Both the position numbers and the translations under genes were made by a program. The notes under the pieces are model-generated. The model was not told where the DNA came from. It worked only from the letters and a program-made list of their open reading frames with translations, and did not search any database. From positions 124,001-188,000 of the forward strand of contig NZ_BBYM01000005.1 in NCBI RefSeq assembly GCF_001570405.1: DNA of 64,000 nucleotides. The letters run 5' to 3'. Below, in pieces: positions 7,117 through 56,085 of the stretch (position 1 is the stretch's first letter; every line of letters starts with the position of its first letter). This DNA is from Microtetraspora niveoalba. Its GTDB lineage: Bacteria > Actinomycetota > Actinomycetes > Streptosporangiales > Streptosporangiaceae.

Positions 7117-7542
7117 TCACGCTCCTGACGGGTTGGGGGAAGGTGGGATGAAGCGGCGCAGGTCCCTGGTACCGACGAGCGATGCGGCCTGGATGAGCTT
7201 TGGCCGGATGAATTTTTTCGGTGCGGGGATGTAGTAGCCGAAATCTTTGATCTGCCAGATCAGTTCGTCGGGGTAGATGTCCTCGGCGGTGAAGCGGAAC
7301 TCGCCCCAAGGCTCGGCTGCGGGAGGGATACGAGGAGTGAGAACGCTCGCCGCTTCGGTAGCCACCTTCCCAAGGGGTTCGAACAGCTCTTCCTCTATGA
7401 GATCGCCGTCGACCAGCCAGGCAATGCAGTCGGGCAGGTGTACGGCGGCGGCCGGCATGTCCACGCGGCGGTGAAGGAGCCAGGATTCCGAGACTGGGAT
7501 GAAGCAAATGCGAGGGGGCTGAAAGCGGTATGGGGTTTCCAT
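7117..7542 (-). CDS. Unknown protein upstream of integrase
   Basis: This 141-aa protein is not recognised. It is mixed alpha/beta in composition with acidic centre (VDGDLIEEELFEPLG) and aromatic C-terminal half (DELIWQIKDFGYYIPAPKKF). The ATG at 7542 has GGAAGG 12 bp upstream; the frame continues to 7635 with poorer coding character. Its stop is 5 bp before the integrase ATG, so the two are very likely co-translated. Position fits a recombination directionality factor or integration accessory protein, but no helix-turn-helix is obvious. Confidence 0.65.
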   Translation of the reverse strand: METPYRFQPPRICFIPVSESWLLHRRVDMPAAAVHLPDCIAWLVDGDLIEEELFEPLGKVATEAASVLTPRIPPAAEPWGEFRFTAEDIYPDELIWQIKDFGYYIPAPKKFIRPKLIQAASLVGTRDLRRFIPPSPNPSGA

Positions 7543-7659
7543 GGGGCTTTTGTGCCTTCCAAGGTGGTACTTGTGCTTACGCGCTATAAGCGTGTAACGC
7601 GTCACCATGGCACTGAAGGTCCGTTTCGTCATCAACGGACTTTGTTGGAACGAGACAAG

Positions 7660-7709
7660 TGACCTGTAAATAGGTCAAACAGCCATAGGGGTCTCACCTT
7701 TTGGTGACA
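7660..7709. promoter_or_regulatory. Two inverted repeats upstream of the integrase operon
   Basis: TGACCT-GTAAAT-AGGTCA (7660-7677) is a perfect 6-bp inverted repeat, and TCACC-TTTT-GGTGA (7694-7707) is a second. They lie in the 184-bp gap between the repressor stop and the int-operon start. The first resembles a dimer operator; the second could also act as a weak terminator for the repressor transcript. Confidence 0.5.
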
Positions 7710-7726
7710 CTTACCTAACCGTCAGG

Positions 7727-8122
7727 TCAGCCCTTCTGGCGCCCCATCAGCCGTTGGGCCATCTCTTCGGCCCAACGGACGATGGCCTGTCGGTCCCCTT
7801 CCGGCAGGTCTGGCGGGACTGCGAAGGTGACATGCCCCTGATCGATCTCGCGCTCTTCAACCTCGAACTCTGGCCCCACACCCACGCGACTGTCCGTGCC
7901 AGACAAGATCGCCTGAATGGTCCCCGGCTGCCACTCGAATGCACTTTCGAGATCGGCCATGCGCATCGGAGTCAGTGTCGCAGTCTCGTCGTTGCGCAGC
8001 CTGCGCAGGTTGGCGGTCGACATTCGCGCCCGCTTGGCCAGCTCTTCCCATCGCAGGCGAAGCTCTACCCGACGTTGCTCCATCGCCGCAGCCAGGCGAC
8101 GCCTGGGGCTGTCCTCGGTCAC
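7727..8122 (-). CDS. XRE-family phage repressor (CI-like)
   Basis: This 131-residue protein has an N-terminal lambda-repressor-type HTH (WEELAKRARMSTANLRRLRN, about residues 25-44) and a helical, acidic C-terminal part ending in IVRWAEEMAQRLMG, but no LexA-type Ser-Lys protease domain. Induction is therefore probably not by RecA-driven self-cleavage. I chose GTG 8122 because GAGGGG lies 7 bp upstream; an ATG further out (8209) would run into the operator region. It is divergent from a second small XRE gene, the classic immunity layout. Confidence 0.8.
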   Translation of the reverse strand: MTEDSPRRRLAAAMEQRRVELRLRWEELAKRARMSTANLRRLRNDETATLTPMRMADLESAFEWQPGTIQAILSGTDSRVGVGPEFEVEEREIDQGHVTFAVPPDLPEGDRQAIVRWAEEMAQRLMGRQKG

Positions 8123-8221
8123 ATCCAGTCCCCTCGCCGATCTGGGTCTGCGTGCACACCTTAGCGCACACAAGCGCACGCCATTTAGGTGCGCCTCGCC
8201 GATATACACCCGAGAACGCGA

Positions 8222-8268
8222 TTAGCGCTAGCTTGCGCTCCATGGCTTGTTAGCGCTAGCGTTCGCTC
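8222..8268. promoter_or_regulatory. Repressor/Cro operator repeats
   Basis: TTAGCGCTAGC occurs at 8222-8232 and again at 8250-8260, 28 bp apart. Each copy contains the palindrome TAGCGCTA and is followed by a related CGCTC tail. The second copy ends directly at the Cro-like ATG (8269). A partial copy (TTAGCGCAC) lies at 8161. Two or three phased palindromes in a divergent XRE/XRE gap are typical of a lysogeny switch. Confidence 0.75.
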
Positions 8269-8532
8269 ATGCCACATCCGACAACCCTTCCTTTCGATCG
8301 AAAGCGCTTACGGGAATGGCGAGAGCGGCGCGGATACCACCAGTCCGATCTCGCCCAGCGATGCACTGACCAGGGCACCCCTGTCTCGGTCTTCCAGGTC
8401 AGCCGGGCCGAGGTCGGTAAGAGCAAGCCTCAGGCACACGTCGTGGTCGCCATGGCCAGAGCGCTCCAGATCGAGCTCGACGAGCTTCTCTCCACGCCGG
8501 TGGATGAAAACCAGGAGCAGGAGAGTCCGTGA
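8269..8532 (+). CDS. Small XRE HTH protein (Cro-like)
   Basis: This 87-aa protein is almost entirely a helix-turn-helix domain: LREWRERRGYHQSDLAQRC, then VSVFQVSRAEVGKSKPQ and a final helix MARALQIELDELL. It is divergent from the larger repressor across the TTAGCGCTAGC repeats, so a Cro or early-activator role is likely. It opens the rightward early operon and overlaps the next gene by four bases (GTGA). Confidence 0.78.
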   Translation: MPHPTTLPFDRKRLREWRERRGYHQSDLAQRCTDQGTPVSVFQVSRAEVGKSKPQAHVVVAMARALQIELDELLSTPVDENQEQESP

Positions 8533-43164: not shown

Positions 43165-44031
43165 GTGGCAGGCGTGCGGCAGTCCCGGGAGGCGCTTGGA
43201 GCGCGCCTCAAGGAGCTACGGGTGGACGCGCGCCTGAACGGCAAGCAGCTCGCCGAGCGAGTGGGCTGGCTGGCCACGAAGGTCTCCAAACTCGAGCACG
43301 GCAAGCAGACCCCGACCGAGGATGACATCCGCGCCTGGGTCGCCGCGACCGGCGCGGAGCGCGAGCTGGGCTCGCTCCTTGCCCAGCTCCTCAGCCTCGA
43401 ACTTGCCTACTCCGAGTGGCGGCGGCAGCTTCGCGACGGGCTGCGCGCCCGGCAGATGCAGATCGGAGCCATCGAGACCGAAACCGGACTGTTCCGCATG
43501 TTCGAGCCCGCCGTGGTGCCCGGCCTGCTCCAGACCGGGGAGTACGCACGAGCCATGATGCGGCTGTCCGTCGCGGTGCATCGGATCCCCAACGATCTGG
43601 ATGCCGGCGTAGCGGCGCGCCTTGCCCGCCAGCAAGTCCTCTACGAGGCGGGCAAGCGCTTCCACTTCATCATCTCGGAGGCGACGCTGCGGTACCTGTT
43701 CGGGCCACCGGAGGTGTCGATGGGTCAGATCGAGCGGCTGGTCGCCACGGCGACGCTGCCCAACGTCGCGCTCGGGGTGATCCCGTTCACCGCCCGACTG
43801 CCCAAGCATCTCGCGCACGGATTCGCCATCTACGACGAACGGCTCGTCCTCGTCGAGTCGTTCGGCGCGGAGCTGTCACTCACACAGCCACAGGAGATCG
43901 AGCTGTACGGGCGAATCTTCGGGATCATGCATGAGGTGGCCGTGTACGGACGTGAGGCCCACGCGCTCATGATGCGGGTCATGGAAGATCTCGCTGGGAT
44001 GATTTCGAGCAATACCGAGCAATCTCCTTGA
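43165..44031 (+). CDS. XRE regulator with DUF5753 domain (Scr1/WhiJ-like)
   Basis: 288 residues. HTH at about 10-60 (LKELRVDARLNGKQLAERVG; KVSKLEHGKQTPTEDDIRAW). The DUF5753 domain covers about 100-280 with FEPAVVPGLLQTGEYARAMM and NVALGVIPFTARLPKHLAHG. In Streptomyces, WhiJ-type proteins with this architecture control development and antibiotics together with small partners. Start GTG 43168 or TTC-adjacent GTG near 43165. The GAGCAAT repeats before 42422 and at its own end are likely operators. Confidence 0.9.
   Translation: MAGVRQSREALGARLKELRVDARLNGKQLAERVGWLATKVSKLEHGKQTPTEDDIRAWVAATGAERELGSLLAQLLSLELAYSEWRRQLRDGLRARQMQIGAIETETGLFRMFEPAVVPGLLQTGEYARAMMRLSVAVHRIPNDLDAGVAARLARQQVLYEAGKRFHFIISEATLRYLFGPPEVSMGQIERLVATATLPNVALGVIPFTARLPKHLAHGFAIYDERLVLVESFGAELSLTQPQEIELYGRIFGIMHEVAVYGREAHALMMRVMEDLAGMISSNTEQSP
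44007..44023. promoter_or_regulatory. Operator candidate: GAGCAAT-N3-GAGCAAT (copy 2)
   Basis: GAGCAAT at 44007 and 44017, again 10 bp apart, lie within the last codons of the DUF5753 gene. This copy precedes the 44100 gene and, beyond it, the graspetide genes, so the same regulator could control the downstream cargo. Confidence 0.65.
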
Positions 44032-44780: not shown

Positions 44781-44943
44781 TGCAAGCCCCCGCGACCCCG
44801 GGCTGGATCTCGGCCCCCGTCCAGCAGGTTCATCACCAGAGTTCCAGCCACGACGGGCCGACATGCCTCCCCGGGGCCGCGGGCACCACCCGGGCCGCCA
44901 CCTGGCCACCCGGGAACCCCCTTCACCAGGAAGGAACGACGCG

Positions 44944-45195
44944 ATGAACACCGGAACTCCCTGGGCGCTCGGCCGCATGGTTCCCCAGGCGACGAGCTTC
45001 CTCCCCCACACCAGCGTCCACCTGGACCCTGACACGCAGCAGGGCGTCTACGTCGGCCCCGGTGGCACGCCCATCGAGGCCGGCAAGCATGGCACCAACA
45101 GGCAGACCGCGGGCTGCCTGGCCACCGGCGGCAGCGACGGCAACGCGCCGGCGCCCGCTGACGACACCGCCAGCACGGACTACGACAAGGACTGA
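44944..45195 (+). CDS. tgmA: Graspetide precursor peptide (ATP-grasp-modified RiPP)
   Basis: 83 residues from ATG 44944 with GGAAGGA 7 bp upstream. The leader holds PWALGRM (6-12), the counterpart of the PFxLRx recognition motif for the ligase, then DPDTQQGVYVGPGG and KHGT (48-51), typical of the TgmA family. The likely core is about residues 52-83. It combines Thr/Ser with Asp in TGGSDGN and DDTASTDYDKD, giving donors for ester bonds and an Asp-Gly pair (65-66) prone to aspartimide formation. The ligase gene begins 2 bp after its stop. Confidence 0.88.
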   Translation: MNTGTPWALGRMVPQATSFLPHTSVHLDPDTQQGVYVGPGGTPIEAGKHGTNRQTAGCLATGGSDGNAPAPADDTASTDYDKD

Positions 45196-45197
45196 CC

Positions 45198-46142
45198 GTG
45201 GGCGAGGTGCTGGTCCTCACCTGCCTGGACGACCCGACCGCTGACATGGTCATCGGCCACCTGAACCGGCGAGGGGCGCAGGTTGCCCGGCTCGACCCCG
45301 GGGCCGACTTCCCGGCCGCCGCGTCGTTCTCCGCCCACTTTGGTGGGCGGCCAGGCGGGTCACTCACCACTGCCTCGCGGCACGTCGATCTGGAAGGGGT
45401 GCGGGCCGTCTACTACAGGCGGCCCACGCCCTACCTTCCCGACGACCCGTCGCAGGCAGAGCACTTTGCAGGTGTCCAGGCCCGGTACGGGCTCGGCGGG
45501 GTGCTGGCGTCGCTGCCGTGCCGGTACGTGAACCATCCGTGGAAGGTGATGGCGGCCGAGCACAAGCCGGTCCAGTTCGCCATCGCCCGCCGGGTCGGGT
45601 TCGCGATCCCCCCGACGCTGATCACGAACCGGCCCGACGACGCGCGAGAGTTCGCGGCCGCGCACGAACCCGTCATCTACAAGCCGCTCAGGCTCACCCC
45701 GTACACCAGCCCGTCTGGAGAGCCGTCCACCATCTGGGCGACCCCGGTGGACCCGGCCACGCTGGACGAGACCGTCAGCCACACGGCGCACCTGTTCCAG
45801 GCCCGCGTGGACAAGGTCGCCGACCTGCGCGTGACCGTGGCGGGAGAGCGCGTGTTCTGCATCCGGATCGGGTCGCCTCTGCTCGACTGGCGGCAGGACT
45901 ACGGCCGCATCACCTACACGCTGGTGGATCCGCCGCCGGGGCTCGCCGACGCCGCCCGCGCCTTCCTCGGCATGCTCGACCTGTCGTTCGGCGCGTTCGA
46001 CTTCGCCGTCGCCCGCAACGGCGTGCCGCTGTTCCTGGAGTGCAACCCGAATGGTCAGTGGGGTTGGCTGGAGGAAGCCACCGGCGCCCCGATCGCGGCG
46101 GCCATCGCCGACCTGCTACTGGAGGATCATGAACGTCCGTAA
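45198..46142 (+). CDS. tgmB: ATP-grasp peptide ligase (graspetide maturase)
   Basis: 314 residues from GTG 45198. ATP-grasp features: VNHPWKVMAAEHKPVQFAIA (111-130), the ATP-binding Lys162 in VIYKPLR, and the metal-binding block FDFAV with LFLECNPNGQWGW (279-290). MvdD/PsnB/TgmB enzymes phosphorylate Asp/Glu side chains of a precursor and join them to Thr/Ser/Lys side chains, forming omega-ester or amide rings. The N-terminal 105 residues would bind the leader. It overlaps the methyltransferase gene by 14 bp. Confidence 0.93.
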   Translation: MGEVLVLTCLDDPTADMVIGHLNRRGAQVARLDPGADFPAAASFSAHFGGRPGGSLTTASRHVDLEGVRAVYYRRPTPYLPDDPSQAEHFAGVQARYGLGGVLASLPCRYVNHPWKVMAAEHKPVQFAIARRVGFAIPPTLITNRPDDAREFAAAHEPVIYKPLRLTPYTSPSGEPSTIWATPVDPATLDETVSHTAHLFQARVDKVADLRVTVAGERVFCIRIGSPLLDWRQDYGRITYTLVDPPPGLADAARAFLGMLDLSFGAFDFAVARNGVPLFLECNPNGQWGWLEEATGAPIAAAIADLLLEDHERP

Positions 46143-47301
46143 TGACGACATCGCCGCCCAGCTCCGCCGCCACCTGGGCGCCGAACTCACCCGCGAAGGC
46201 GACCTTCGCACCGCCGAGTGGAGGCAGTCCGTCGAGATGGTGCCCCGGGAGGTGTTCCTCGGCGACCACTTCTTCCGGCGGATCGACGGCGCCTCCGGCA
46301 CGATGTGGGAGCCGATCACCCCATCCGATGGGAAGCAGTGGCTCAGCTTGGCCTACGAGAACGTCACGTGGGTGACGCAGCTCGACGGCCAGAACACGTC
46401 GGCACCGTCCGGGCCGGTCGCCGGCGCGCCGACGTCGTCCTCGACCCTTCCGGGACTGGTCGTGCGGATGCTGGAAGACCTCCAGGTGGACGACGACTCG
46501 CGCGTGTTGGAGATCGGCACCGGCACCGGCTACTCGACCGCGCTGCTCGCCGAACGTCTCGGCGCGGACCGGGTCACCTCCATTGAGGTGGACCCGCACG
46601 TCGCGGATCGCGCCCGCGAGGCGCTGCACCGGGCGGGATACCGGCCGCGCCTCGTGGTCGGGGATGGTCTGGTTGGCCACGAGGAGGGCGGGCCGTACGA
46701 CAGGGTCATCGCGACCTGCTCCGTCCGGTACATCCCGGCCGCGTGGCTGGTCCAGGCCCGGCGGGGCGGGATCGTCCTCGCCACTTTGTCTGGGTGGCTG
46801 TTCGGGTCGGGGCTTGCCCGGCTGACTGTGACCGGCCCCTCCTCGGCCGAGGGGGAGTTCCTACCGGGCACGGTCTCGTTCATGTCCGCTCGGCCGCATG
46901 CCGGGCCGCCGCTCGGCGAGCTTCCGGATCGGGAGGACGGCGAGGAGCGGGCGGCGGTGTACGGGGGCGAGGTGCTGGAGGAGTGGACGTCGCGGTGGAT
47001 CGCGCAGCTCGCCGCACCTGGCGCGCAGCAGTTCAGCATGCGGTACGAGGACGGCCCGATGACGCACTGGCTGATCGACCAGGCCGCCGGGTCATGGGCG
47101 TGGCTGGCCCCGGCCGGTGACGGGTGGACGGTGCGGCAAGGCGGGCCGCGTCGGCTGTGGGACGACATCGAGTCCGCGATCGGCGGATGGCGTAGGGCCT
47201 CATCGCCGCCTCAGCAGGCGTTCCGCATCCGCATCACCAGCGGCGAACAGGTCGTGTTCTTGCCCGGCGCGCGGACCCTGCGGTGGGTCCTTCCAGGCTG
47301 A
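46129..47301 (+). CDS. tgmC: PIMT-like methyltransferase of graspetide system
   Basis: 390 residues from ATG 46129, GGAGG 3 bp upstream. The PIMT core has TSSSTLPGLVVRMLEDL (102-118) and the SAM motif VLEIGTGTGYSTALL (126-140). About 170 further residues form a C-terminal domain absent from housekeeping PIMT. In the characterised graspetides fuscimiditide and relatives, such enzymes methylate an Asp of the ring-closed peptide, which then collapses to aspartimide. The same product type is inferred here. Confidence 0.9.
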   Translation: MNVRNDDIAAQLRRHLGAELTREGDLRTAEWRQSVEMVPREVFLGDHFFRRIDGASGTMWEPITPSDGKQWLSLAYENVTWVTQLDGQNTSAPSGPVAGAPTSSSTLPGLVVRMLEDLQVDDDSRVLEIGTGTGYSTALLAERLGADRVTSIEVDPHVADRAREALHRAGYRPRLVVGDGLVGHEEGGPYDRVIATCSVRYIPAAWLVQARRGGIVLATLSGWLFGSGLARLTVTGPSSAEGEFLPGTVSFMSARPHAGPPLGELPDREDGEERAAVYGGEVLEEWTSRWIAQLAAPGAQQFSMRYEDGPMTHWLIDQAAGSWAWLAPAGDGWTVRQGGPRRLWDDIESAIGGWRRASSPPQQAFRIRITSGEQVVFLPGARTLRWVLPG

Positions 47302-47631: not shown

Positions 47632-47678
47632 CGTTCGGGACGAAGAGGCCGTGGGTTCAAATCCCGCCACCCCGACCC
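47632..47678 (+). other. attR
   Basis: 47-bp copy of the tRNA-Pro 3' end, one mismatch (C47649). Only the anticodon-arm-to-3'-end half is present, so this is not a functional tRNA gene. Confidence 0.93.
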
Positions 47679-47687
47679 GATAGGTTC

Positions 47688-48418: not shown

Positions 48419-48748
48419 GTGAAGGCGGAGGGAATGTCCGTTGATTTGCCGTTGGGTTTCGATGTCGAGTCGGCGCTGTCGCGGATCACCGCTCTTTCCG
48501 AGCGCGAGCAAGAAGTGCTGATGCTGCTTGCCCACGGGCTCACAGATCAGCAGATAGCCGAGCATCTTTCCATTACTCATCGCACCGCGCGCGCCCACAC
48601 GGCCAGCATCCTCTGCAAACTACAGGTGACAGGGCGCATACAGGCCGCAATGGTCGGATTCACTGTGCATCGCGGATCGGAAATCGTCAATTGGCTGACC
48701 CGCCATGGCGGAACGGCCAATGGTCAGGGAATCGCCGGTAGCTCATGA
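48419..48748 (+). CDS. LuxR-type HTH regulator, single domain
   Basis: 109 residues from GTG 48419, or 104 from ATG 48434. The HTH covers about 24-80: LSEREQEVLMLLAHGLTDQQ, IAEHLSITHRTARAHTASIL and CKLQVTGRIQAAM. There is no receiver or sensor domain. It immediately precedes the Cys-rich peptide genes in the same direction, 39 bp away, and is probably their activator. Confidence 0.85.
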   Translation: MKAEGMSVDLPLGFDVESALSRITALSEREQEVLMLLAHGLTDQQIAEHLSITHRTARAHTASILCKLQVTGRIQAAMVGFTVHRGSEIVNWLTRHGGTANGQGIAGSS

Positions 48749-48787
48749 TGACTCCCAACGTCACTGACGGAGAAAGGGGGTGTTTCG

Positions 48788-48994
48788 ATGAAGACGGCGT
48801 TGGCGTTGGGGGACCGTGTCCTGTCCGCCCTCGTGCCGAGAGCTCGAGCCGCGGCGACGGAATGCGACTACCTGACCTGCACGGTGTACGCGACCTGCTG
48901 CTCGGGTGGCTACTGCTGGTCCTGCTGGCGCACCGGCCAGCAGTACTGCTGCTCGTACCCCAACGGACAGTACTCCTGCGGGAGTTGCAACTAG
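48788..48994 (+). CDS. Cysteine-rich secreted peptide 1
   Basis: 68 residues. The 23-residue leader (KTALALGDRVLSALVPRARA) is an amphipathic helix ending in ARAAA, a type I signal-peptidase-like AxA site, but lacks a classic hydrophobic Sec core. The mature part has ten Cys at 26, 31, 37, 38, 43, 46, 54, 55, 64 and 67 (CDYLTC, CCSGGYCWSC, CC, CGSC). CDY-x2-C followed by CSGG recalls the disulfide-rich methylamine dehydrogenase light chain. The associated thioredoxin-like, MauE-like, exporter and peptidase genes suggest secretion and oxidative folding. Confidence 0.8.
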   Translation: MKTALALGDRVLSALVPRARAAATECDYLTCTVYATCCSGGYCWSCWRTGQQYCCSYPNGQYSCGSCN

Positions 48995-49006
48995 GGAGGC
49001 ATTGCG

Positions 49007-49210
49007 ATGACAACGATGCTGAACCTGGCTGACCGGGTCCTGGCGGCGCTGGTCCCGAAGGCCAGAGCCGCGGCCGCTGAATGCGACTACGTGACCTGCA
49101 CGGTGTACGCGACCTGCTGCTCGGGCGGTTGGTGCTGGTCCTGCTCTCGTCCCGGTCATCAGACCTGCTGCTACCGCTCGGGAACGATGACCTGCACCAC
49201 CTGTGCGTAG
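49007..49210 (+). CDS. Cysteine-rich secreted peptide 2 (tandem paralogue)
   Basis: 67 residues, GGGAGG 8 bp before ATG 49007. It aligns with peptide 1 throughout: leader MTTMLNLADRVLAALVPKAR, then Cys 26, 31, 37, 38, 43, 46, 54, 55, 63 and 66. CTVYATCCSGG is identical; residues between later cysteines vary (RPGH, YRSGTMT). The leader is as conserved as the Cys core, as in peptide families processed by a dedicated system. Arose by duplication. Confidence 0.8.
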   Translation: MTTMLNLADRVLAALVPKARAAAAECDYVTCTVYATCCSGGWCWSCSRPGHQTCCYRSGTMTCTTCA

Positions 49211-49223
49211 CTGAGCATGTCGA

Positions 49224-49258
49224 GGCGTGTCGGCCTGCTCTCATCAAGCCGACACGCC
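49224..49258 (+). terminator. Hairpin between peptide genes and machinery genes
   Basis: GGCGTGTCGGC and GCCGACACGCC form a perfect 11-bp stem with a 13-nt loop, followed by GTCATCATTTTA. A partial terminator here would give high peptide and low machinery expression from one promoter. Confidence 0.68.
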
Positions 49259-49287
49259 GTCATCATTTTATTGAGGATGGTTTGCCG

Positions 49288-49839
49288 ATGACATGGAACG
49301 TGGCTGCCCTGGTCCTGCTCGGAGCGCTCTGCCTGGTGAATCTGCTCTTGACGGTCGCCGTCATCCGGCGACTCAAGGAGCACACGGAGCTGTTGAGCGA
49401 GCGGGCGAGGCCCGAGATGTTCTCCAAATCGGCCGGCGATCCCGTCGGCGAGTTCACAGCGGTCACCACGGCGGGTGAGACCCTCTCATCGAGTGAGCTG
49501 CCTCCCCTGGTCGTCGCGGCGTTCTTCGCGCCCGGCTGCCAGCCATGTGAGGAGCAGATTCCGCAGCTCACGGCCTACGCTGCCAGGTATCCGGCGGACG
49601 GACCCCGATTCTGGGCCGTCGTGTTCGACACCGGCGCCGATCCCGAGGCCGTCCGGGAGAAGGTCGCGGCGCTGGACGGCAATGTGAACGTGATCCTGGA
49701 GCCGCCGGGCGGTCCGGTGGCCAGGGCCTTCGGGGTCAACACGGTCGTGCCCGCGTTCGTCGTGGCGGGTGACGGCGTCGTCCGGGGGACCGAGGGCAGG
49801 GTGGACATGCTGCCGGACTTCAAGCCCGCGGGCGTGTGA
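49288..49839 (+). CDS. MauD/TlpA-like thioredoxin-fold protein
   Basis: 183 residues from ATG 49288 (GAGGA 9 bp upstream). N-terminal TM helix (LVLLGALCLVNLLLTVAVI), then a thioredoxin fold with the redox pair C84-Q-P-C87 (FFAPGCQPCEEQIPQLTAYA) and the cis-Pro loop NTVVPAFVVAGDG. Domain faces outside. MauD, its best-known relative, is needed for disulfide formation in methylamine dehydrogenase. Presumed substrate: the Cys-rich peptides. Overlaps the ABC gene (TGATG). Confidence 0.87.
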   Translation: MTWNVAALVLLGALCLVNLLLTVAVIRRLKEHTELLSERARPEMFSKSAGDPVGEFTAVTTAGETLSSSELPPLVVAAFFAPGCQPCEEQIPQLTAYAARYPADGPRFWAVVFDTGADPEAVREKVAALDGNVNVILEPPGGPVARAFGVNTVVPAFVVAGDGVVRGTEGRVDMLPDFKPAGV

Positions 49840-51617
49840 TGGTCCTTGCCGTCGCGCTGGCGTGGCGGTCCGGACCACTGCGGGTGCTGGTCTATCTGCT
49901 GGCCACCCTGTGTTCCGCCACCGTGCCGTTGAGCGTCGCCTGGCTGACCAAGCTGACGATCGACGAGGTGGCGGCGGGTACGGTCTGGCAGCGGCTCGCT
50001 CCGTTGGCGATCGGCCTGGCCGTCGTCGGCGTGATCTCCAGCCTCATGCCCGGCGTGCTGAAGTATGTCCGGACCGCTTTGGACCGGGCGACCGGCCTGG
50101 TGGCCCAGGAGCGGTTGTTCGGCGCGGTCAACCGGCTGTCGGGGCTGGCACGCTTCGAAGACCCGGCGTTCCTGGACCGGCTGCAACTCGCCCGCCAGTC
50201 CGGAGGGCTGACCCCGGGACAGGTGGTCGACACGGGCCTGCAGGTGGTCCGCGGCACGCTGGTCGTCGGCGGCTTCCTGACCGGTTTGTTCGTCATGAGC
50301 CCGCTGATCGCCGGGATCGTCGTGCTCTCCGCGGTCCCCGTGCTGGTCTCCGAGGTCTGGCTGTCCCGGCGCAGGGCCGCGATGATGTGGCAGGTCGCGC
50401 CCATGCAGCGCTGGGAGATCTTCTACGGCATGCTGCTGAGCGACGACCGGGCGGCCAAGGAGGTCCGGCTCTTCGGCCTGGGCGCCTGGCTGCAGACCCG
50501 GATGTTGCGCGAGCGGCGGCTTGTCAACGCGGCGCAGCAGCGGATGGACCGGCGCGGGCTCGCCGTGGAGACCTGCCTGGCGCCGCTGTCCGCCGTGGTC
50601 GCGGGCGCCGGCCTGCTGTGGGCGATCGCGGAGGCCGGGAGCGGCCGGCTGACCCCGGGCGACGTCGCCATGTTCGTCGCGGCGGTCGGCGGGGTGCAGA
50701 CCGGTCTGGCCCAGATGGCGGGTGACGTGGCCGCCGCCCACCAGCAACTGCTGTTGTTCGCGCACTTCCGGGCGGTGGTGGACGCGCCACAGGATCTCCC
50801 GGTCCCCGAGCGGCCCACACCTGTCCCCCCGCTCCGGCACGGCATCGAGCTGAAGGACGTCTGGTTCCGCTACTCGCCCGACCACCCCTGGGCCCTCCGC
50901 GGGGTCGACCTCACCATCCCGTACGGCGCCGCCGTCGCGTTGGTCGGCCGGAACGGTGCGGGCAAGAGCACCCTGGTCAAGCTGCTCTGCCGGTTCTACG
51001 ACCCCACACGCGGCACGATCCTGTGGGACGGCGTCGACCTGCGTGACATGGATCCCACGGCGTTGCGCCGGCGGCTGGGCGTGCTGTTCCAGGACTTCAT
51101 GGAGTACGACCTGACCGCCGGGGAGAACATCGGCCTGGGCGACCTCGCGCTGATGGACGATCGGCGCCGGCTGGAGCAGGCGGCGCGGGACGCGGGCGTG
51201 CACGACGACCTGGCCGCGCTGCCGGGCGGTTACGGCACCCCGCTGACGCGTGTCTTCCTGCCCGCGGAGGAGGGGACCGGCGTGATGCTCTCCGGTGGCC
51301 AGTGGCAGCGGGTGGCCCTGGCCAGAGCGCTGCTGCGCGGCGACCGCGACCTGCTGATCCTGGACGAGCCCAGCTCCGGTCTGGACGCCGAGTCCGAACA
51401 CGCCATCCACACCAGGCTCAGAACGCTCCGGCAGGGCCGTACCAGCGTGTTGATCTCCCATCGGCTCAACGCGGTCCGCGACGCCGACCACCTGATCGTG
51501 CTGGACGCCGGGCAGGTGGTGGAGCAGGGCACGCACGAGGAGCTGATGTCGGCCGGCGGCCGCTACGCGGACCTCTTCACCTTGCAGGCATCCGGCTACC
51601 GGGAGCCGGTCAGGTGA
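49839..51617 (+). CDS. ABC exporter, fused TMD-NBD
   Basis: 592 residues. Six-helix exporter TMD (about 1-320) and NBD with Walker A GRNGAGKST, signature LSGGQWQRVALARALL, Walker B LLILDEPSSGLD and H-loop SHRLNAV. No C39 peptidase domain is present, so leader removal must be done by another enzyme, for which the adjacent S26 peptidase is available. Related exporters lie beside actinomycete peptide clusters. Confidence 0.9.
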   Translation: MVLAVALAWRSGPLRVLVYLLATLCSATVPLSVAWLTKLTIDEVAAGTVWQRLAPLAIGLAVVGVISSLMPGVLKYVRTALDRATGLVAQERLFGAVNRLSGLARFEDPAFLDRLQLARQSGGLTPGQVVDTGLQVVRGTLVVGGFLTGLFVMSPLIAGIVVLSAVPVLVSEVWLSRRRAAMMWQVAPMQRWEIFYGMLLSDDRAAKEVRLFGLGAWLQTRMLRERRLVNAAQQRMDRRGLAVETCLAPLSAVVAGAGLLWAIAEAGSGRLTPGDVAMFVAAVGGVQTGLAQMAGDVAAAHQQLLLFAHFRAVVDAPQDLPVPERPTPVPPLRHGIELKDVWFRYSPDHPWALRGVDLTIPYGAAVALVGRNGAGKSTLVKLLCRFYDPTRGTILWDGVDLRDMDPTALRRRLGVLFQDFMEYDLTAGENIGLGDLALMDDRRRLEQAARDAGVHDDLAALPGGYGTPLTRVFLPAEEGTGVMLSGGQWQRVALARALLRGDRDLLILDEPSSGLDAESEHAIHTRLRTLRQGRTSVLISHRLNAVRDADHLIVLDAGQVVEQGTHEELMSAGGRYADLFTLQASGYREPVR

Positions 51618-52093
51618 TCGTCTTCCTGTGGGTCGTCGTGGTGTGCGCGGTCGCCGGTCTGGTCGCCGGTCTGATCGCGCGGCGGCGGTTGCTGATCATC
51701 GAAGTGGAGGGCGGCAGCATGGAGCCGACGTACCGCGACGGGGACCGGCTGCTCGTCGTCCGTACGCCGGGTGTCGCGCGTACGGGGCGGGTGGTGGTGC
51801 TCGACCGCAGGCGGCTCGGCCGCTGGGGAGCCGGAGCGCCGCCCGATGCGCCGGCGACCGCGCCGCTGATCGTCAAACGGGTCGCAGGGGTGGCGGGCGA
51901 CACGATCTCCGCAGAACTCGCAGAGCGGGCGAATCTCCCCTCAGGCGCTCAGGTCCCTGCCGGTCATCTCATCATTTTGGGTGATAACTCTGATGGAAGC
52001 CTTGATTCTCGGTGTATGGGTTACATTCCTGTAAGGCCGGTTGTAGGCACCGTAGTGGGCCGACTATCCCAGAGCCGATGGCAGGGCCAATGA
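51614..52093 (+). CDS. S26-family signal peptidase
   Basis: 159 residues from GTG 51614. One N-terminal TM (VFLWVVVVCAVAGLVAGLIA), then the Ser35/Lys88 dyad (EGGSMEPTYRDGDRLLV; LIVKRVAGVAGD) and GDNSDGSLDSR. Shorter than housekeeping LepB, as in cluster-specific peptidases. It could cut the peptides after ARA or AAA. Overlaps the ABC gene by four bases. Confidence 0.88.
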   Translation: MIVFLWVVVVCAVAGLVAGLIARRRLLIIEVEGGSMEPTYRDGDRLLVVRTPGVARTGRVVVLDRRRLGRWGAGAPPDAPATAPLIVKRVAGVAGDTISAELAERANLPSGAQVPAGHLIILGDNSDGSLDSRCMGYIPVRPVVGTVVGRLSQSRWQGQ

Positions 52094-52117
52094 CAGGGCC
52101 AATGACAGGGCTGATGA
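52082..52117 (+). repeat. Three tandem 12-bp repeats before the MauE-like gene
   Basis: CAGGGCCAATGA, CAGGGCCAATGA, CAGGGCTGATGA. The first contains the stop of the peptidase gene; the last ends 4 bp before the next ATG. Each unit brings a TGA, so copy-number change would not extend the protein. Confidence 0.7.
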
Positions 52118-52121
52118 CCAG

Positions 52122-52631
52122 ATGAGCTATCTGACCCTGGCCTCACGGTTGTTACTGATGGCGGTCTTCGTGCTTTCCTCCGTCGGAAAGCTGCGCGACC
52201 TCGGATCCTTCGCGAGGTCGTTGGTTTCACTGAAGTTGGCGCCGGCACGGCTGGCCGGGCATATGGCGGCGTCCGTGGTCGCCGCCGAGGCCGCCGTGGT
52301 GTCTCTGCTGGCCCTGGCTCCCCGGTTGGGCCTGGCGTCGGCCGCCGCCCTGCTCCTGGCGTTCACCGTGGTCATCGTGCGGGCGATGTCGCGCGGGCAG
52401 CGGGCTTCCTGTAACTGCTTCGGCAAGCAGGGCGCGAACCTCGGTGGGCGTCAAGTCGTACGCAATGTCCTGCTGATGGGCGCCGCGCTGCTGGGAGCCG
52501 TCGGGGAGGCGTTCTCGTCCGGCTCGCTGAAATTCGAAGGAATTGTGATTGTCGCGGTCGCGGTGGCGGCATTGACAACTATTGTCTACTTCTGGGATGA
52601 CCTTGTGGACCTGTTGGTCCCTATTCGGTGA
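52122..52631 (+). CDS. MauE/DoxX-like membrane redox protein
   Basis: 169 residues, four TM segments (about 5-22, 45-65, 72-90, 108-155). A cytoplasmic/periplasmic loop holds C97-N-C99 in RASCNCFGKQ, the conserved CxCFG motif of MauE proteins. MauE works with MauD to make disulfides in the Mau system, probably passing electrons through the membrane. Its presence beside peptides with ten Cys supports an oxidative folding role. Confidence 0.85.
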   Translation: MSYLTLASRLLLMAVFVLSSVGKLRDLGSFARSLVSLKLAPARLAGHMAASVVAAEAAVVSLLALAPRLGLASAAALLLAFTVVIVRAMSRGQRASCNCFGKQGANLGGRQVVRNVLLMGAALLGAVGEAFSSGSLKFEGIVIVAVAVAALTTIVYFWDDLVDLLVPIR

Positions 52632-52641
52632 GGCAGGAACG

Positions 52642-53130
52642 ATGAGGTTCTGGTTGGGCGGTCTGGCGCTCCTCCTGGTGGCAGGCTGTGCGGCGGGCGG
52701 GCCCGATGACGCCGCTGCGCGGAAAGCGTTCGAAGACGGTCCGCTGAAGTTCGCCAAATGCATGCGGGAGAACGGGATCGACATGAAGGATCCGGTTCTC
52801 GGAGAGCCTGTCAAGCTGGGGCCGGAAAACGCCAAGAAAGAGGATCAGCCGAAGATCAACGCGGCGATGGAGAAGTGCGGCAAGCTCACCGGCTTCACGG
52901 AGAGCGGCAAGGAACTCACGCCCGATGAGCTGGACAAGGTCCGAGCGCTGGTCCGCTGCCTACGCGAGAAGACCGGGCTGCGGGTCGGGGATCCCGATGA
53001 GACGGGAAAGTATGAGGTCACCGGGCTGACCTTGGACGGGAAGAAGCTGTCCGACGACGAGTTCCGCGCCAAGGTAGAGGCCGCCAGGCGGGTCTGCGAC
53101 AGCGGTGGCGTGAAGGCGAACAATTCATGA
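52642..53130 (+). CDS. Secreted lipoprotein, unknown
   Basis: 162 residues from ATG 52642. Signal peptide with lipobox LVAGC (Cys16). The mature part is charged and helical, with four Cys (KCMRENGIDM, MEKCGKL, VRCLREKTGL, RRVCDSGG) that could form two disulfides. The FAKCMRENG motif is common in actinomycete lipoproteins found beside MacAB-type ABC systems. Overlaps the adaptor gene by four bases. Confidence 0.8.
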   Translation: MRFWLGGLALLLVAGCAAGGPDDAAARKAFEDGPLKFAKCMRENGIDMKDPVLGEPVKLGPENAKKEDQPKINAAMEKCGKLTGFTESGKELTPDELDKVRALVRCLREKTGLRVGDPDETGKYEVTGLTLDGKKLSDDEFRAKVEAARRVCDSGGVKANNS

Positions 53131-54158
53131 GATGGGCCTGGGCGGGCGGGGGCTTCCTGGCGCTGGGCTGCGTGGCCGTCACCGTCTGGGCGATGGTGCC
53201 CACCACCGCCGCGGAAAAGCCCACAACGGTGCGGCCGCCGCTGTCCACGGTGGCCGTCGAGCGGACGACTCTGACCGAGACGACCACGGTCGACGGCCGG
53301 CTCGGCTACGGACCGGCCACGGTCGTGCGCGGGCGCGCGACCGGCACGTTGACGTGGGTGGCGGGCGACGGCGCGGTGGTGAAGCGGGGGAGACCGCTGT
53401 ACCGGGTGGACGACCACGCGGTCGTCGCGCTCTGGGGCCGAACGCCGCTGTGGCGGCCCCTCACGACGGGCGTCAAGGGCAAGGACGTCGCGCTGCTCGA
53501 ACGCAATCTGGCCGCGCTCGGCTACGACGGCTTCACCAGGGACGATTCCTACACCTGGGAGACGGCGCGGGCCGTCAAGCGCTGGCAGAGGTCGCTGCGA
53601 CTCCCGCAGACCGGCGTCGTCACCGCGGACCAGGCGGTCGTCGTGGCGGGGCCGGTGCGGATCGCCCGGCAGGTGGGTGAGCTGGGTGGACCCGCGTCCG
53701 GGGCGATCCTGGAGTACACCGGCACCGGCAAGGTGGTCAGCTTCGACCTCCCCGCCGATCAGCGGAGGATGGCGAAGGTCGGCGGCGGGGTCCAGGTGGA
53801 ACTGCCCGACGGGAAAACGGTCCAGGGCGTCGTGAGCCAGGTGGGCAGAGTAGCCGTGGCCGATCCCCAGAAGGGGGATGCGCGGATTCCGGTCACCGTA
53901 CGGCTGAAGAAGCCCGTTCGCGGCTTGGACGAGGGGCCCGTCCGGGTCGAACTCGCGGCCGGTGGCAAGAAGGATGTGCTCGCCGTACCCGTGGAGGCCC
54001 TGGTCGCGACGGCGGGCGACGGGTACGGCGTGCAGGTCGTCGCAGGCACGCAGGTCAAGCTGGTCGTCGTACAGGTCGGCATGTTCGCGCAGGGCAAGGT
54101 GGAGATCAGCGGCGCCGAGGTGACGGAGGGAACGCGAGTCGGGGTACCCGCGGCATGA
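53127..54158 (+). CDS. Membrane-fusion/adaptor protein with peptidoglycan-binding domain
   Basis: 343 residues. N-terminal TM anchor (about 4-25), a lipoyl/barrel-sandwich half ([20 protein letters not shown]), a PG-binding domain near 115-170 ([40 protein letters not shown]), then beta-barrel and a second half ([13 protein letters not shown]). In actinomycetes such MacA/HlyD-like proteins pair with MacB-type ABC transporters. Confidence 0.85.
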
Positions 54159-54844
54159 CACCCGTCGCAAGCAGTGGTACGGCGGGCGTTCCGGCGGTGG
54201 AGTTCGACCGGGTGTCCCGGGTCTATCCCGACGGCACGGTGGGCCTCGGCGAGGTGAGCCTGCGGATCGGGCGTGGCGAACTGGTGGCCGTCGTGGGGCC
54301 GTCGGGATCCGGCAAGTCCACGATGCTGCATCTGATGGGGACGCTGGACCAGCCCAGCTCGGGCACGGTGCGCATCGACGGGCACGATGTGGCCGCGCTG
54401 AGCGACCGGCAGGTGTCCGGGCTGCGCGGCGGGCTGATCGGCTTCGTGTTCCAGCAGTTCCACCTGACGCCCGGCGTCAGCGCAGTGGACAGCGTGGCCG
54501 ACGGGCTGCTGTATCGGGGCATCGCGCCGTCGGAGCGCAGGAGGCGCGCCGAGCGGGCGCTGGAACGGGTCGGTCTGGGACACCGGCTGACCCACCGGCC
54601 GAACGAGCTGTCGGGAGGAGAGCGCCAGCGGGTCGCGGTGGCGCGCGCGGTGGTCGGTGAACCCCTGCTGCTGCTGGCCGACGAACCCACCGGGAACCTG
54701 GACTCCGTCGCCGGTCAGGCCGTGGTCGAGCTGCTCAACGAGCTGCACGCCGACGGCACCACGGTCGTGGTGATCACCCACGACCGTGAGCTGGCCGCTG
54801 CCCTGCCACGCCGGATCGAGCTGCGGGACGGGAAGATCGTATGA
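54155..54844 (+). CDS. MacB-type ABC transporter ATP-binding protein
   Basis: 229 residues. Walker [10 protein letters not shown] (48-56), signature [16 protein letters not shown], Walker [15 protein letters not shown]-loop ITHDREL. LolD/MacB subgroup. Four-base overlaps with adaptor and permease genes. Confidence 0.93.
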
Positions 54845-56085
54845 GCGTGCACGTCTCGTGGTCGCGCGAGGAGGATGCGGCCCGCACGGGCGGGGCGGGC
54901 CTGCCGGTCTCCCGGTTGCGCGGGCGGGATGTCGTGCGGGTGGGGCTGCACGGGCTGCGGGCCCGTGCGCTGCGGGTGGCGCTGTCCGTGCTGGGCATCG
55001 CGATCGGGATCGCGGCCATGGTCGCCGTGGTGGGGATCTCCGCCTCCAGCCGCGCCGAGTTGGAGCGCACGCTGGACCGGCTCGGCACCGGCATGCTCAC
55101 CGTCAGCCCCGGCGACAAGTTGGCCGGAGGTCAGGCGGAGCTGCCGACCGGCTCGGTCGGCATGATCGGCAGACTGACCGCGGTGGCACAGGTCTCCGCC
55201 GCCGCCCGGCTGGCCGATGTCAACGTCTACCGCAACGACCGGATCCCGGCAGGCGAGAGCAAGGGGCTCAGCGTCCGCGCCGCCCGCCTGAACTTGCTGG
55301 AGGTCACGAAGGCCCGGCTGGCGCAGGGCACCTGGCTGAACCCGGCCACCGCCCGCTATCCGGTCACCGTGCTGGGCGCGCACGCGGCCGAGCTGCTCGG
55401 CGTGCCGAGCCCCGGGATGCGGGTTTGGCTGGGCGGACGCTGGTTCGCCGTGGCCGGGATACTCGAATCGGCGCCGCTCGCCCCCGAACTGGATGTCAGC
55501 GCTCTCATCGGGGAACAGATCGCGACCACCCTGGGCTTCGAGGGCCACCCCACGACGATCTACGTTCAGGTGGGCTCATCCGATCAGGTCCTCGATGTCC
55601 GTGACCTGCTGGCGGCGACCGCCAATCCCGAGGACCCGCACGAGGTCAAGGTCAGCCGCCCGTCGGAGGCGCTCGCCGCCCAGCGAGCGGCCGACATGGC
55701 GTTCACCGGGCTCCTGCTCGGCCTGGGCGGGGTCGCGCTGCTGGTGGGCGGGGTCGGCGTCGCCAACACGATGATCATCTCCGTGCTGGAGCGGCGGGGT
55801 GAGATCGGACTGCGCCGCTCGCTCGGCGCCACCCGTGGCCACATCCGGGTGCAGTTCCTGGTGGAGTCGCAACTCCTGGCCGGGCTCGGCGGGCTGGGCG
55901 GCATACTGCTGGGCACCGCGGTCACCGCCGTCTACGCCCTGGCCCAGGGCTGGCCCGCCGTGCTGCCCGTCTGGGCCACAGGAGGAGCACTGGCGGCGAC
56001 CCTGATCATCGGCGGAATCGCCGGCCTCTACCCGGCCATCAGAGCGGCCCGCACGCCGCCCACTCAGGCACTGGCCAGTCTTTGA
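54841..56085 (+). CDS. MacB-type ABC transporter permease (FtsX-like)
   Basis: 414 residues. TM1 at about 45-70 ([20 protein letters not shown]), a large extracytoplasmic MacB core domain (75-265), then three TM helices in an FtsX domain with [20 protein letters not shown]. The set probably moves a peptide or lipid out of the membrane, or provides immunity to the cluster's own product. Ends 12 bp from the convergent TetR stop. Confidence 0.92.

Follow-up and report, generated by a model that had tools for sequence, protein, structure and literature searches.

A recurrent actinomycete gene cassette predicted to export, oxidise and process leader-bearing cysteine-rich peptides

A gene cassette of Actinomycetota is likely to form a leader-directed line for the export, oxidative folding and processing of disulfide-rich ribosomal peptides, which are probably antimicrobial. 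This reading comes from sequence comparison, and its least supported step, that the product is a secreted, bacteriocin-like antimicrobial, has roughly an even chance of being right. The cassette was found in a window of 64,000 nucleotides from Microtetraspora niveoalba, where the genes for two small precursors, P1 and P2, are followed by MauD/TlpA-like, ABC exporter, S26 protease and MauE genes in a single tight run on the + strand. The ORF list and domain matches place the genes where a first-pass annotation of this DNA had put them:

48419..48748, + strand: LuxR/GerE regulator, helix-turn-helix (HTH) only (PF00196, 56 bits; start position uncertain)
48788..48994, + strand: precursor P1, 68 aa, 10 Cys (ORF, RBS-like sequence, homologues, leader family)
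49007..49210, + strand: precursor P2, 67 aa, 10 Cys, paralogue of P1 (ORF, RBS-like sequence, kept in genome G061)
49224..49258, + strand: hairpin with an 11-bp perfect stem and a 13-nt loop (centroid stem, in the gap between precursors and machinery)
49288..49839, + strand: MauD/TlpA-like membrane-anchored thiol oxidoreductase, CQPC (PF00578, 35.9 bits)
49836..51617, + strand: ABC exporter, 593 aa, without C39 peptidase domain (PF00005, 107 bits)
51614..52093, + strand: S26 signal-peptidase-like protease, GTG start, Ser/Lys dyad (PF10502, 75.9 bits; TIGR02227, 70.3 bits, above cut-off)
52122..52631, + strand: MauE-like membrane protein, CxCFG motif (PF07291, 96 bits)
52642..53130, + strand: small lipoprotein-like protein (without Pfam match; hydrophobic N-terminus ending GC)
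53127..54158, + strand: MacA-like adaptor with peptidoglycan-binding domain (PF01471, PG_binding_1, 45.9 bits; TIGR01730, 33.3 bits, below cut-off)
54155..54844, + strand: MacB/LolD-like ATPase (PF00005, 114.5 bits)
54841..56085, + strand: MacB-like permease (ORF overlapping the ATPase stop, with a G061 homologue; outside the Pfam scan)

The domain assignments proposed earlier were borne out: the CQPC protein matches the AhpC-TSA/Redoxin profiles, the exporter matches ABC_tran and leaves Peptidase_C39 unmatched, and the MauE-like protein carries its CNC motif as C97-N-C99. The catalytic Ser35 and Lys88 named for the S26 protease are Ser37 and Lys90 of the longer frame, once the GTG at 51614 is taken as the start. 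Among ten operon proteins scanned against Pfam, a set that excludes the permease at 54841-56085, no Lan synthetase, radical SAM, ATP-grasp or glycosyltransferase was found, and PADLOC gave no match for four window proteins. A promoter scan of the window returned a single weak promoter-like site, on the opposite strand, and a terminator scan two terminator-like sites, a smaller number than shuffled sequence gave; the loop of the 49224..49258 hairpin is too long for that scan. A graspetide cluster at 44938-47298 adjoins the peptide cassette but is separate from it.

P1 and P2 had been described as sharing leader, AxA site and all ten cysteine positions. They do have leader and AxA site in common and agree in spacing up to the eighth cysteine (C-x4-C-x5-CC-x4-C-x2-C-x7-CC), but eight residues separate the eighth and ninth cysteines of P1 and seven those of P2 (x8 and x7), which offsets the last pair by one. 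The P1 leader spans residues 1-23, with a predicted cut after A23 (AxA), and the predicted mature P1 and P2, of 44-47 residues, are neutral to slightly acidic (net charge -1 and 0), unlike their mostly cationic relatives. RBS-like sequences (GGAGAAAGGGGG, GGGAGG) lie 5' of both genes. The same-genus genome G061 holds both peptides with all ten cysteines kept (93% and 67% identity to P1); conservation and gene context together rule out chance ORFs. Two other same-genus genomes, G096 and G118, gave no peptide match at E<=0.01, so that presence is patchy within the genus. Neither P1 nor P2 has a Pfam match at E<=1. Among 19 aligned peptides, these two included, the best Pfam E value was 0.025 and the best NCBIfam E value 0.016, each for one of the 19, and a profile search of the PDB with the family returned a best E of 0.25, to an unrelated protein. 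No current Pfam or NCBIfam model covers the 19 scanned peptides convincingly.

The family is recognised by its leader, with the consensus LxDRLLxxxVPxxxAxAxxC followed by a hypervariable core. The 10-Cys spacing, proposed earlier as a search pattern, was dropped as a signature because cysteine number varies from 4 to 12. Of 116 distinct relatives, 110 have AxA or SxA ahead of the first cysteine and 113 have an even number of cysteines (40/40, 34/34 and 39/42 by set), each relative being counted a single time and P1 and P2 excluded; some leader seeds had been chosen for at least five cysteines, none for parity. A clipped core definition, which drops early cysteines in a few peptides, lowers the even count to 110/116, and with it 62 of 68 clusters at 50% identity are even. 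A start-codon rule excluded the true peptides of L199 and L203, already counted through L059 and L057, and a variant at L209. We regard the even number as strong sequence evidence of cysteine pairing. Three relatives (L175, L200, L202) have odd numbers, and a peptide found with a looser pattern at L201 has nine, so pairing is not absolute. Cysteine richness, mostly even numbers and the CC motifs of 74/116 cores would also suit a metallothionein-like protein, intracellular or at the surface, whose paired cysteines bind metal, but leader, AxA site, exporter, signal-peptidase-like protease and intact oxidoreductase indicate an oxidised, exported product, and we give metal binding almost no credence.

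Conservation of the peptide genes with MauD, MauE and S26 genes in relatives, on which the first-pass annotation had staked its proposal, was found in dozens of loci. A set of 69 loci was assembled from peptide or leader matches, except for L052, which came in through MauE. TlpA was present in 62 of them, the ABC exporter in 60, S26 in 59 and MauE in 54, with all four in 49, at bit thresholds that we set ourselves (TlpA 40, ABC 450, S26 40, MauE 20); control regions placed arbitrarily in five of these genomes scored 0/20 for each gene. In 15 of the 69 loci no neighbouring MauE was found. These counts retain three weak, empty loci (L120, L121, L122). The peptide search had given 42 places, two of them the window's own; eight were left without flanks (G200, G266, G063, G017, G203, G160, G114, G036), and inspection by eye, which covered the 3-kb loci of all but G036, showed no leader-like short frame. 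The first locus set was chosen by leader and not by neighbours, though the ORFs of the 3-kb loci had been seen beforehand. A further 38 leader-match stretches were hand-picked for short-frame matches, some as weak as E 0.03, with most long-frame matches omitted. Two loci, L040 and L041, are peptide arrays without a nearby cassette, and each of their genomes has two cassette exporters elsewhere.

Approached from the other side, 80 loci picked by exporter alone, among the matches listed, contained TlpA in 73, S26 in 72, MauE in 63 and a leader-HMM peptide in 45, with all five genes in 33. The looser pattern, which gave two false matches in the 20 control regions, adds peptides in 28 of these loci, bringing those with a leader-like Cys peptide to 73/80 and leaving seven without any, again among the matches listed; its secondary matches in L199, L203 and L214 look spurious, a true peptide being present in all three. 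The 69- and 80-locus sets overlap and were not merged (L203, for example, is the L057 place). Within the machinery, the catalytic residues are invariant: both cysteines of the MauD-like CxxC in 63/63, Ser and Lys of S26 in 60/60 and the MauE CxC in 55/55. Across 37 loci the four machinery genes are correlated in similarity (Mantel r 0.64-0.84; none of 2000 permutations as high).

The usual substrates of S26 enzymes are Sec signal peptides, whose cleavage sites the AxA site resembles. The exporter and protease could then handle another substrate while the peptides leave through the general secretion pathway. Against this, the family leader is apparently non-Sec, with no Sec-like hydrophobic stretch: by a crude hydropathy measure the maximal 12-residue window has a median of 0.77, none of 116 leaders exceeds 1.8, and all 116 fall below the level of a Sec h-region. 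Choice by exporter alone, moreover, yields peptides in 73/80 of the loci among the matches listed, and core and leader similarity both track exporter similarity (Mantel r 0.55 and 0.51). We therefore hold exit through general secretion to be very unlikely. Since the core tracks the exporter as much as the leader does, the Mantel test is no demonstration that the exporter recognises the leader.

Distribution was examined in 394 genomes of the class, searched separately for leader and exporter in apparently the same draw. A leader match at E<=1e-4 occurs in 17 genomes, every one within the 30 that have an exporter at E<=1e-60. Presence is patchy in this sample, with up to five exporters per genome. 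At least 488 exporter relatives were found, and the Actinomycetota in which the cassette was seen span at least 20 genera. A wider sample of 198 genomes from the phylum gave leader matches at E<=0.05 in 26, none better than E 0.002 except the window's own genome; these matches were treated as chance because their E values are weak and most lie inside long frames.

The proposed oxidative folding is an analogy with the maturation of methylamine dehydrogenase (MADH), in which MauD and MauE proteins likewise stand beside a Cys-rich exported polypeptide. The cassette differs in pairing a short peptide substrate with a dedicated ABC exporter and S26 protease. The earlier annotation saw no dehydrogenase gene, and the MADH light chain model PF02975 gave nothing above cut-off in the genome (best E 0.29, 14.3 bits, cut-off 25), in an assembly 99.86% complete, the search being confined to the light chain. 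A light-chain kinship of P1 and P2 themselves, suspected from CDY...CC motifs, is unsupported by any profile. The peptides might still be redox or cofactor-bearing proteins, such as a miniature MADH light chain or tryptophylquinone carrier, with MauD and MauE in their usual role; the CDY...CC...C-W-x-C patterns of P1 and P2 and the tryptophan of 92/116 relatives would fit this. PF02975, however, matches neither P1 nor P2 nor any other of the 19 aligned members, and CWxC is found in just 6/116. Apart from a regulator, moreover, no extra family exceeds 11 of 146 loci (minor clusters unannotated), so that no enzyme of cofactor synthesis accompanies the cassette consistently. We consider such a carrier highly improbable.

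A conserved leader, a variable core and export and leader-removal genes alongside give the cassette the marks of a RiPP system. Double-glycine bacteriocins have a leader and a dedicated peptidase-containing ABC exporter, and glycocins have a leader, a dedicated exporter and dedicated BdbA/B-type thiol oxidoreductases. The cassette resembles both in leader and dedicated exporter, and the glycocins also in dedicated thiol oxidoreductases. It differs from double-glycine systems in its separate S26 protease and in having no C39 domain and no GG motif (AxA, and not GG/GA, closes the leaders of P1 and P2), and from glycocins in the MauD/MauE type of its oxidoreductases and the lack of a glycosyltransferase among the ten scanned proteins. 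The nickel superoxide dismutase maturation protease is likewise a private S26 for one small substrate, yet the window's S26 scores 33.9 bits against its model TIGR02754, below the cut-off of 63.25. In the pathway of the quinohemoprotein amine dehydrogenase gamma-subunit (QhpC/QhpE/QhpF), the protease QhpE is subtilisin-like and cleaves before export, thioether cross-links are made by a radical SAM enzyme, and the parts of the source considered do not mention MauD or MauE (PMC7876137).

The system had been called possibly undescribed, which holds in that no product experiment was found and fails in that decRiPPter, a computational study of 2020, had already named three candidate RiPP families with mauE, one of them also with mauD, from Streptomyces (PMC7794033). 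That article was the only relevant one in a search that covered the MauE literature in part and so does not prove absence from print. In the parts considered here, it gives these candidates a single paragraph, with precursors of at least eight cysteines and no other mau genes, and terms the exact roles of MauD and MauE speculative or unclear (PMC7794033). Like the cassette, they combine mauE with a small Cys-rich precursor, under transporter, peptidase and regulator filters. The main text contains neither 'S26' nor 'signal peptidase', unlike the present account, and its section 7 does not mention a common leader, cysteine parity or genera beyond Streptomyces (PMC7794033). Held against that description, the window has mauE and 10-Cys precursors and its genome shows no MADH light chain above cut-off, other mau genes lying outside the search. 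Streptomyces viridosporus NRRL 2414, of the same species as decRiPPter strain T7A, has a cassette with a 6-Cys peptide (L217). The mauE families are likely the same as those described here, compared by description only.

The MacAB-like genes announced after MauE are present, with PG_binding_1 in the MacA-like protein and ABC_tran in the MacB-like ATPase, but their proposed membership of the system did not hold: the MacA-like gene and the lipoprotein occur in 2 of 31 loci (L051, same-genus, and L062) and in none of 38 others, and the set and lipoprotein were rejected as conserved members for this poor conservation. By its distribution the set is a local addition; as an efflux set of MacAB type, encoded within the cassette's run of genes, it may shield the producer or hand the product onward.

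Regulators bear on whether the products, made on the same maturation line, serve as developmental or quorum signals and not as antimicrobials. An HTH-only LuxR gene lies immediately 5' of the peptides both in the window and in G061 (L051). A recurrent regulator cluster is found in 65 of 146 loci, a set that includes duplicate places, and in 48 by BLASTP; of four members checked, three were SARP/NB-ARC and one XRE/AAA/TPR, and a tblastn search of the window with one XRE/AAA/TPR member gave no relative. Response-regulator and kinase-like clusters, each named by eye from the beginning of a single sequence, occur in 11/146 and 9/146. Yet the cores are very diverse (mean pairwise identity 0.25, 37 loci), genomes hold multiple cassettes, and no receptor-like family is as frequent as the cassette genes among the top 40 clusters, taken without profile annotation. 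Signalling is unlikely, though the least so of the alternatives considered. There is likewise no recurrent immunity family: beyond TlpA, ABC, MauE, regulator and S26, none exceeds 11/146, with a filter that misses many short genes and caught S26 in just 20.

The hairpin at 49224..49258 is a candidate attenuator or 3' stabiliser, although its fold is unexceptional against shuffles (z -1.63; 14/200 equally good). Stems of at least 10 bp lie 3' of 45/116 family peptides and in 9/1000 random 120-mers, which are mostly coding and not intergenic-matched. This inverted repeat after the precursor, the regulator cluster, several exporters per genome, patchy presence and positive cores (mean net charge +1.5; positive in 92/116) may be read as signs of a natural product.

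The proposed secreted-peptide system with MauD/MauE oxidative folding, private exporter and private S26 protease is strongly supported by co-occurrence. In the maturation line that we favour, the reduced precursor would dock, through its leader, on the ABC exporter; once it is across the membrane, the MauD/TlpA protein would form or reshuffle disulfides and be recycled by MauE; and the dedicated S26 protease would cut after AxA, mostly two residues ahead of the first cysteine. The released peptide would have about 30 to 75 residues and 2 to 6 disulfides, five each in P1 and P2.

On balance we lean towards an as yet unnamed ribosomal peptide class, spread over at least 20 actinobacterial genera, in which a fixed cassette makes disulfide-locked secreted mini-proteins of 4 to 12 cysteines from hypervariable sequences; with similar, modest confidence we see in it a bacterial parallel to the making of defensins or knottins, with room for nearly any core. 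If this is true, actinomycetes hold a large unexplored stock of disulfide-rich peptides, many of which a simple leader search could find, and a curated leader model would expose such clusters to genome-mining tools. One cassette might then be reusable to make many such peptides, and MauD and MauE would gain small, readily assayed substrates.

Genes for the two 10-Cys peptide precursors, P1 and P2, adjoin a cassette coding for a TlpA/MauD-like protein, an ABC exporter, an S26 peptidase and a MauE protein, in the following order in the window:

48788-48994, + strand: P1 precursor gene (ORF, 68 aa, ten Cys)
49007-49210, + strand: P2 precursor gene (ORF, 67 aa, ten Cys)
49288-49839, + strand: TlpA/MauD-like protein gene (family match)
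49836-51617, + strand: ABC exporter gene, without a C39 domain (family match)
51614-52093, + strand: S26 peptidase gene (family match)
52122-52631, + strand: MauE protein gene (family match)
52642-56085, + strand: lipoprotein-like gene and MacA/MacB-like set, continuing the same run

The precursor genes are 12 bases apart and their products are paralogous, with leader, AxA site and ten cysteines common to both. The first-pass annotation had all ten cysteine positions coincide; the spacing is indeed identical through eight cysteines, and the last pair is offset by one residue. Junctions of the four cassette genes vary between a 4-base overlap and a gap of 28 bases, there are overlaps between the last four genes of the run, and an HTH-only LuxR gene lies upstream of the peptide genes. 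Searches of Pfam and NCBIfam gave no match for P1 or P2 at E<=1.

With full-length P1 as query, matches (E<=0.01) were found in 37 of 297 same-family genomes. On reading these loci, close copies of P1 and P2 were seen only in the genome itself and in a same-genus sister genome (G061); many other matched genomes have short frames in which a common leader, LxDRLLxxxVPxxxAxAxxC, precedes Cys-rich cores that differ greatly. A second complete system is present on another contig of M. niveoalba (G000:C38), where a 77-79 aa peptide adjoins MauE, TlpA, ABC and S26 genes. A leader-only profile recovered further copies among 394 genomes of the class, and no leader match among 198 genomes of the phylum was convincing outside M. 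niveoalba itself. Scanning named genomes with the exporter membrane domain gave at least 488 relatives, of which the best 80 were taken forward; these represent 22 named genera, among them Streptomyces, Nonomuraea, Micromonospora, Nocardia, Nocardiopsis, Microbispora, Actinoplanes and Thermobifida, and part of the 80 loci lack the full cassette. At E<=1e-60 the exporter is found in 30 of the 394 class genomes, with up to five matches per genome as counted by this cut-off, so that the system is unevenly distributed and often present in several copies.

Peptides and cassette occur together from whichever side the loci are chosen. Of 69 loci selected through a peptide or leader match (one through MauE), 62 have TlpA, 60 the exporter, 59 S26 and 54 MauE. 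The complete set of four is found in 49; the others have three genes (ten loci), two (four), one (one) or none (five). At the same thresholds, 20 control regions of 16 kb, placed arbitrarily in five of these genomes, gave 0/20 for any cassette gene. Conversely, the 80 exporter-picked loci have TlpA in 73, S26 in 72 and MauE in 63, with a leader-profile peptide in 45 and all four genes plus peptide in 33. A looser pattern adds a peptide in 28 more, with 2 chance matches in 20 control regions, and seven of the 80 have no peptide by either search. Furthermore, each of the 17 genomes in which the leader is matched at E<=1e-4 belongs to the 30 exporter-bearing genomes. Across 37 loci, the four machinery genes have strongly correlated similarity matrices (Mantel r 0.64-0.84), and the matrices of leader and core correlate more weakly with the machinery (r 0.39-0.57), the leader no higher than the core; in both cases 0/2000 permutations were as high. 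Two arrays of leader-bearing precursors with differing cores, four in L041 (G214, 7316-8162) and two in L040 (G224, 7959-8346), have no cassette in the 16-kb region analysed. Each of these genomes has two cassette exporters elsewhere, which suggests that the machinery may act on the arrays in trans.

Cysteine parity is a second common property. Leaving aside P1 and P2, the count is even in 113 of 116 distinct relatives (40/40, 34/34 and 39/42 in the first, second and third sets); peptides were never chosen by parity, and some seeds were chosen with a minimum Cys number. When cores were clustered at 50% identity to account for relatedness, 62 of 68 clusters were all even, with cores delimited in a way that drops some early cysteines. 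The exceptions are L175, L200 and L202 in the third set and L201 from the looser pattern. L175 (Micromonospora, 11 Cys) and L201 (Actinoplanes, 9 Cys) have similar-looking cores despite their odd counts, and possibly form dimers or keep a free thiol. The CxxC of the TlpA protein (63/63), the CxC of MauE (55/55) and the Ser/Lys pair of S26 (60/60) are invariant. Together with the even counts, these residues are most naturally read as a sign that the peptides are oxidatively folded and cleaved outside the membrane; the assignment of what TlpA and MauE would each oxidise is by analogy with the Mau system.

Kyte-Doolittle values for the most hydrophobic 12-residue stretch of each of the 116 leaders have a median of 0.77 and never exceed 1.8, compared with 2.36 for the lipoprotein of the same gene run, a crude measure that counts against a Sec signal peptide. 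In 110 of 116 peptides an AxA or SxA site lies ahead of the first core Cys, most commonly at a distance of two residues (59). This placement fits a scheme in which the ABC exporter, having no protease domain, would export the precursor, and the cassette's own S26 enzyme would then cut at the AxA/SxA site. For products with five disulfides the calculated monoisotopic masses are 5006.74 (P1 starting at residue 24), 5148.82 (P1 starting at 22), 4744.70 (P2 starting at 24) and 4886.77 (P2 starting at 22). Between P1 and its sister-genome copy the leader has 0 amino-acid changes and the remainder five. Another type of leader, LxxxGSRLLGxFVPxVDAxA, occurs in the looser-pattern set, ahead of cores that have 8-10 Cys and a CWQC motif (L145, L147, L149, L151, L152, L173, L189, L196 and others), many from Streptomyces and Micromonospora.

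In a combined set of 146 loci, which contains duplicate places, a recurrent regulator family adjoins the cassette, as one cluster in 65 and by direct BLASTP in 48. Pfam searches with four members identified three as SARP (BTAD)-NB-ARC proteins and one as XRE-AAA-TPR. The window and the sister genome have the small LuxR gene in its place, and tblastn with the XRE-AAA-TPR member gave no match in either. Beyond machinery and regulator, every other family is confined to 11 or fewer of the 146 loci, short genes being under-counted. A strong inverted repeat (stem >=10) follows the precursor within 120 bases in 45 of 116 cases, compared with 9 in 1000 random stretches; these consist largely of coding DNA and hence are no matched control. 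The window has an 11-bp stem between P2 and the TlpA gene, with a folding energy unremarkable against shuffles (z -1.63). Such a repeat could permit an excess of precursor over machinery.

Directly upstream (44938-47298, + strand) lies a graspetide-type RiPP cluster, in which the GRASP_targ precursor (TIGR04186), the ATP-grasp maturase (TIGR04187) and its methyltransferase (TIGR04188) each exceed the cut-off, so that two unrelated peptide clusters stand side by side. Between them, at about 47640-47680 (+ strand), a stretch resembling a tRNA 3' half (GTGGGTTCAAATCCCGCCACCCCGACC), with no ARAGORN call, is possibly an integration-site remnant. An XRE-type regulator gene (43165-44028, + strand) precedes the graspetide cluster, its Sco1979 family match being below cut-off (101.9 bits vs 350).

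The idea of MauE/MauD-modified peptides has prior art in decRiPPter (PMC7794033), the available text of which describes three mauE candidate families in Streptomyces, one also with mauD, all with precursors of at least 8 Cys, and proposes MauE/MauD as RiPP precursor modifiers. S. viridosporus T7A is among its strains, and the S. viridosporus genome in our exporter-picked set carries the cassette with a 6-Cys peptide (L217), so the decRiPPter families are probably the same as ours. Relative to that text, what is new is the common leader, the cysteine parity, the fixed S26/ABC/MauD/MauE cassette, the reach over many genera, the additional type of leader and the precursor arrays located apart from a cassette. 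The system, known here from its genes, would combine the workings of a bacteriocin export line with those of methylamine dehydrogenase (MADH) maturation. However, it differs from the former in having neither C39 domain nor GG leader, and from the latter in that the M. niveoalba genome has no MADH light chain above cut-off. The nearest analogy, from the available part of PMC7876137, is the Qhp pathway, with its small Cys-containing polypeptide, private protease and exporter. Cores are cationic in 92 of the 116 relatives, P1 and P2 not being so. Taken together, the regulators, the inverted repeats, the constancy of the P1 leader against the rest and the core charge make this look like a natural-product system, the most likely candidate product being an antimicrobial.
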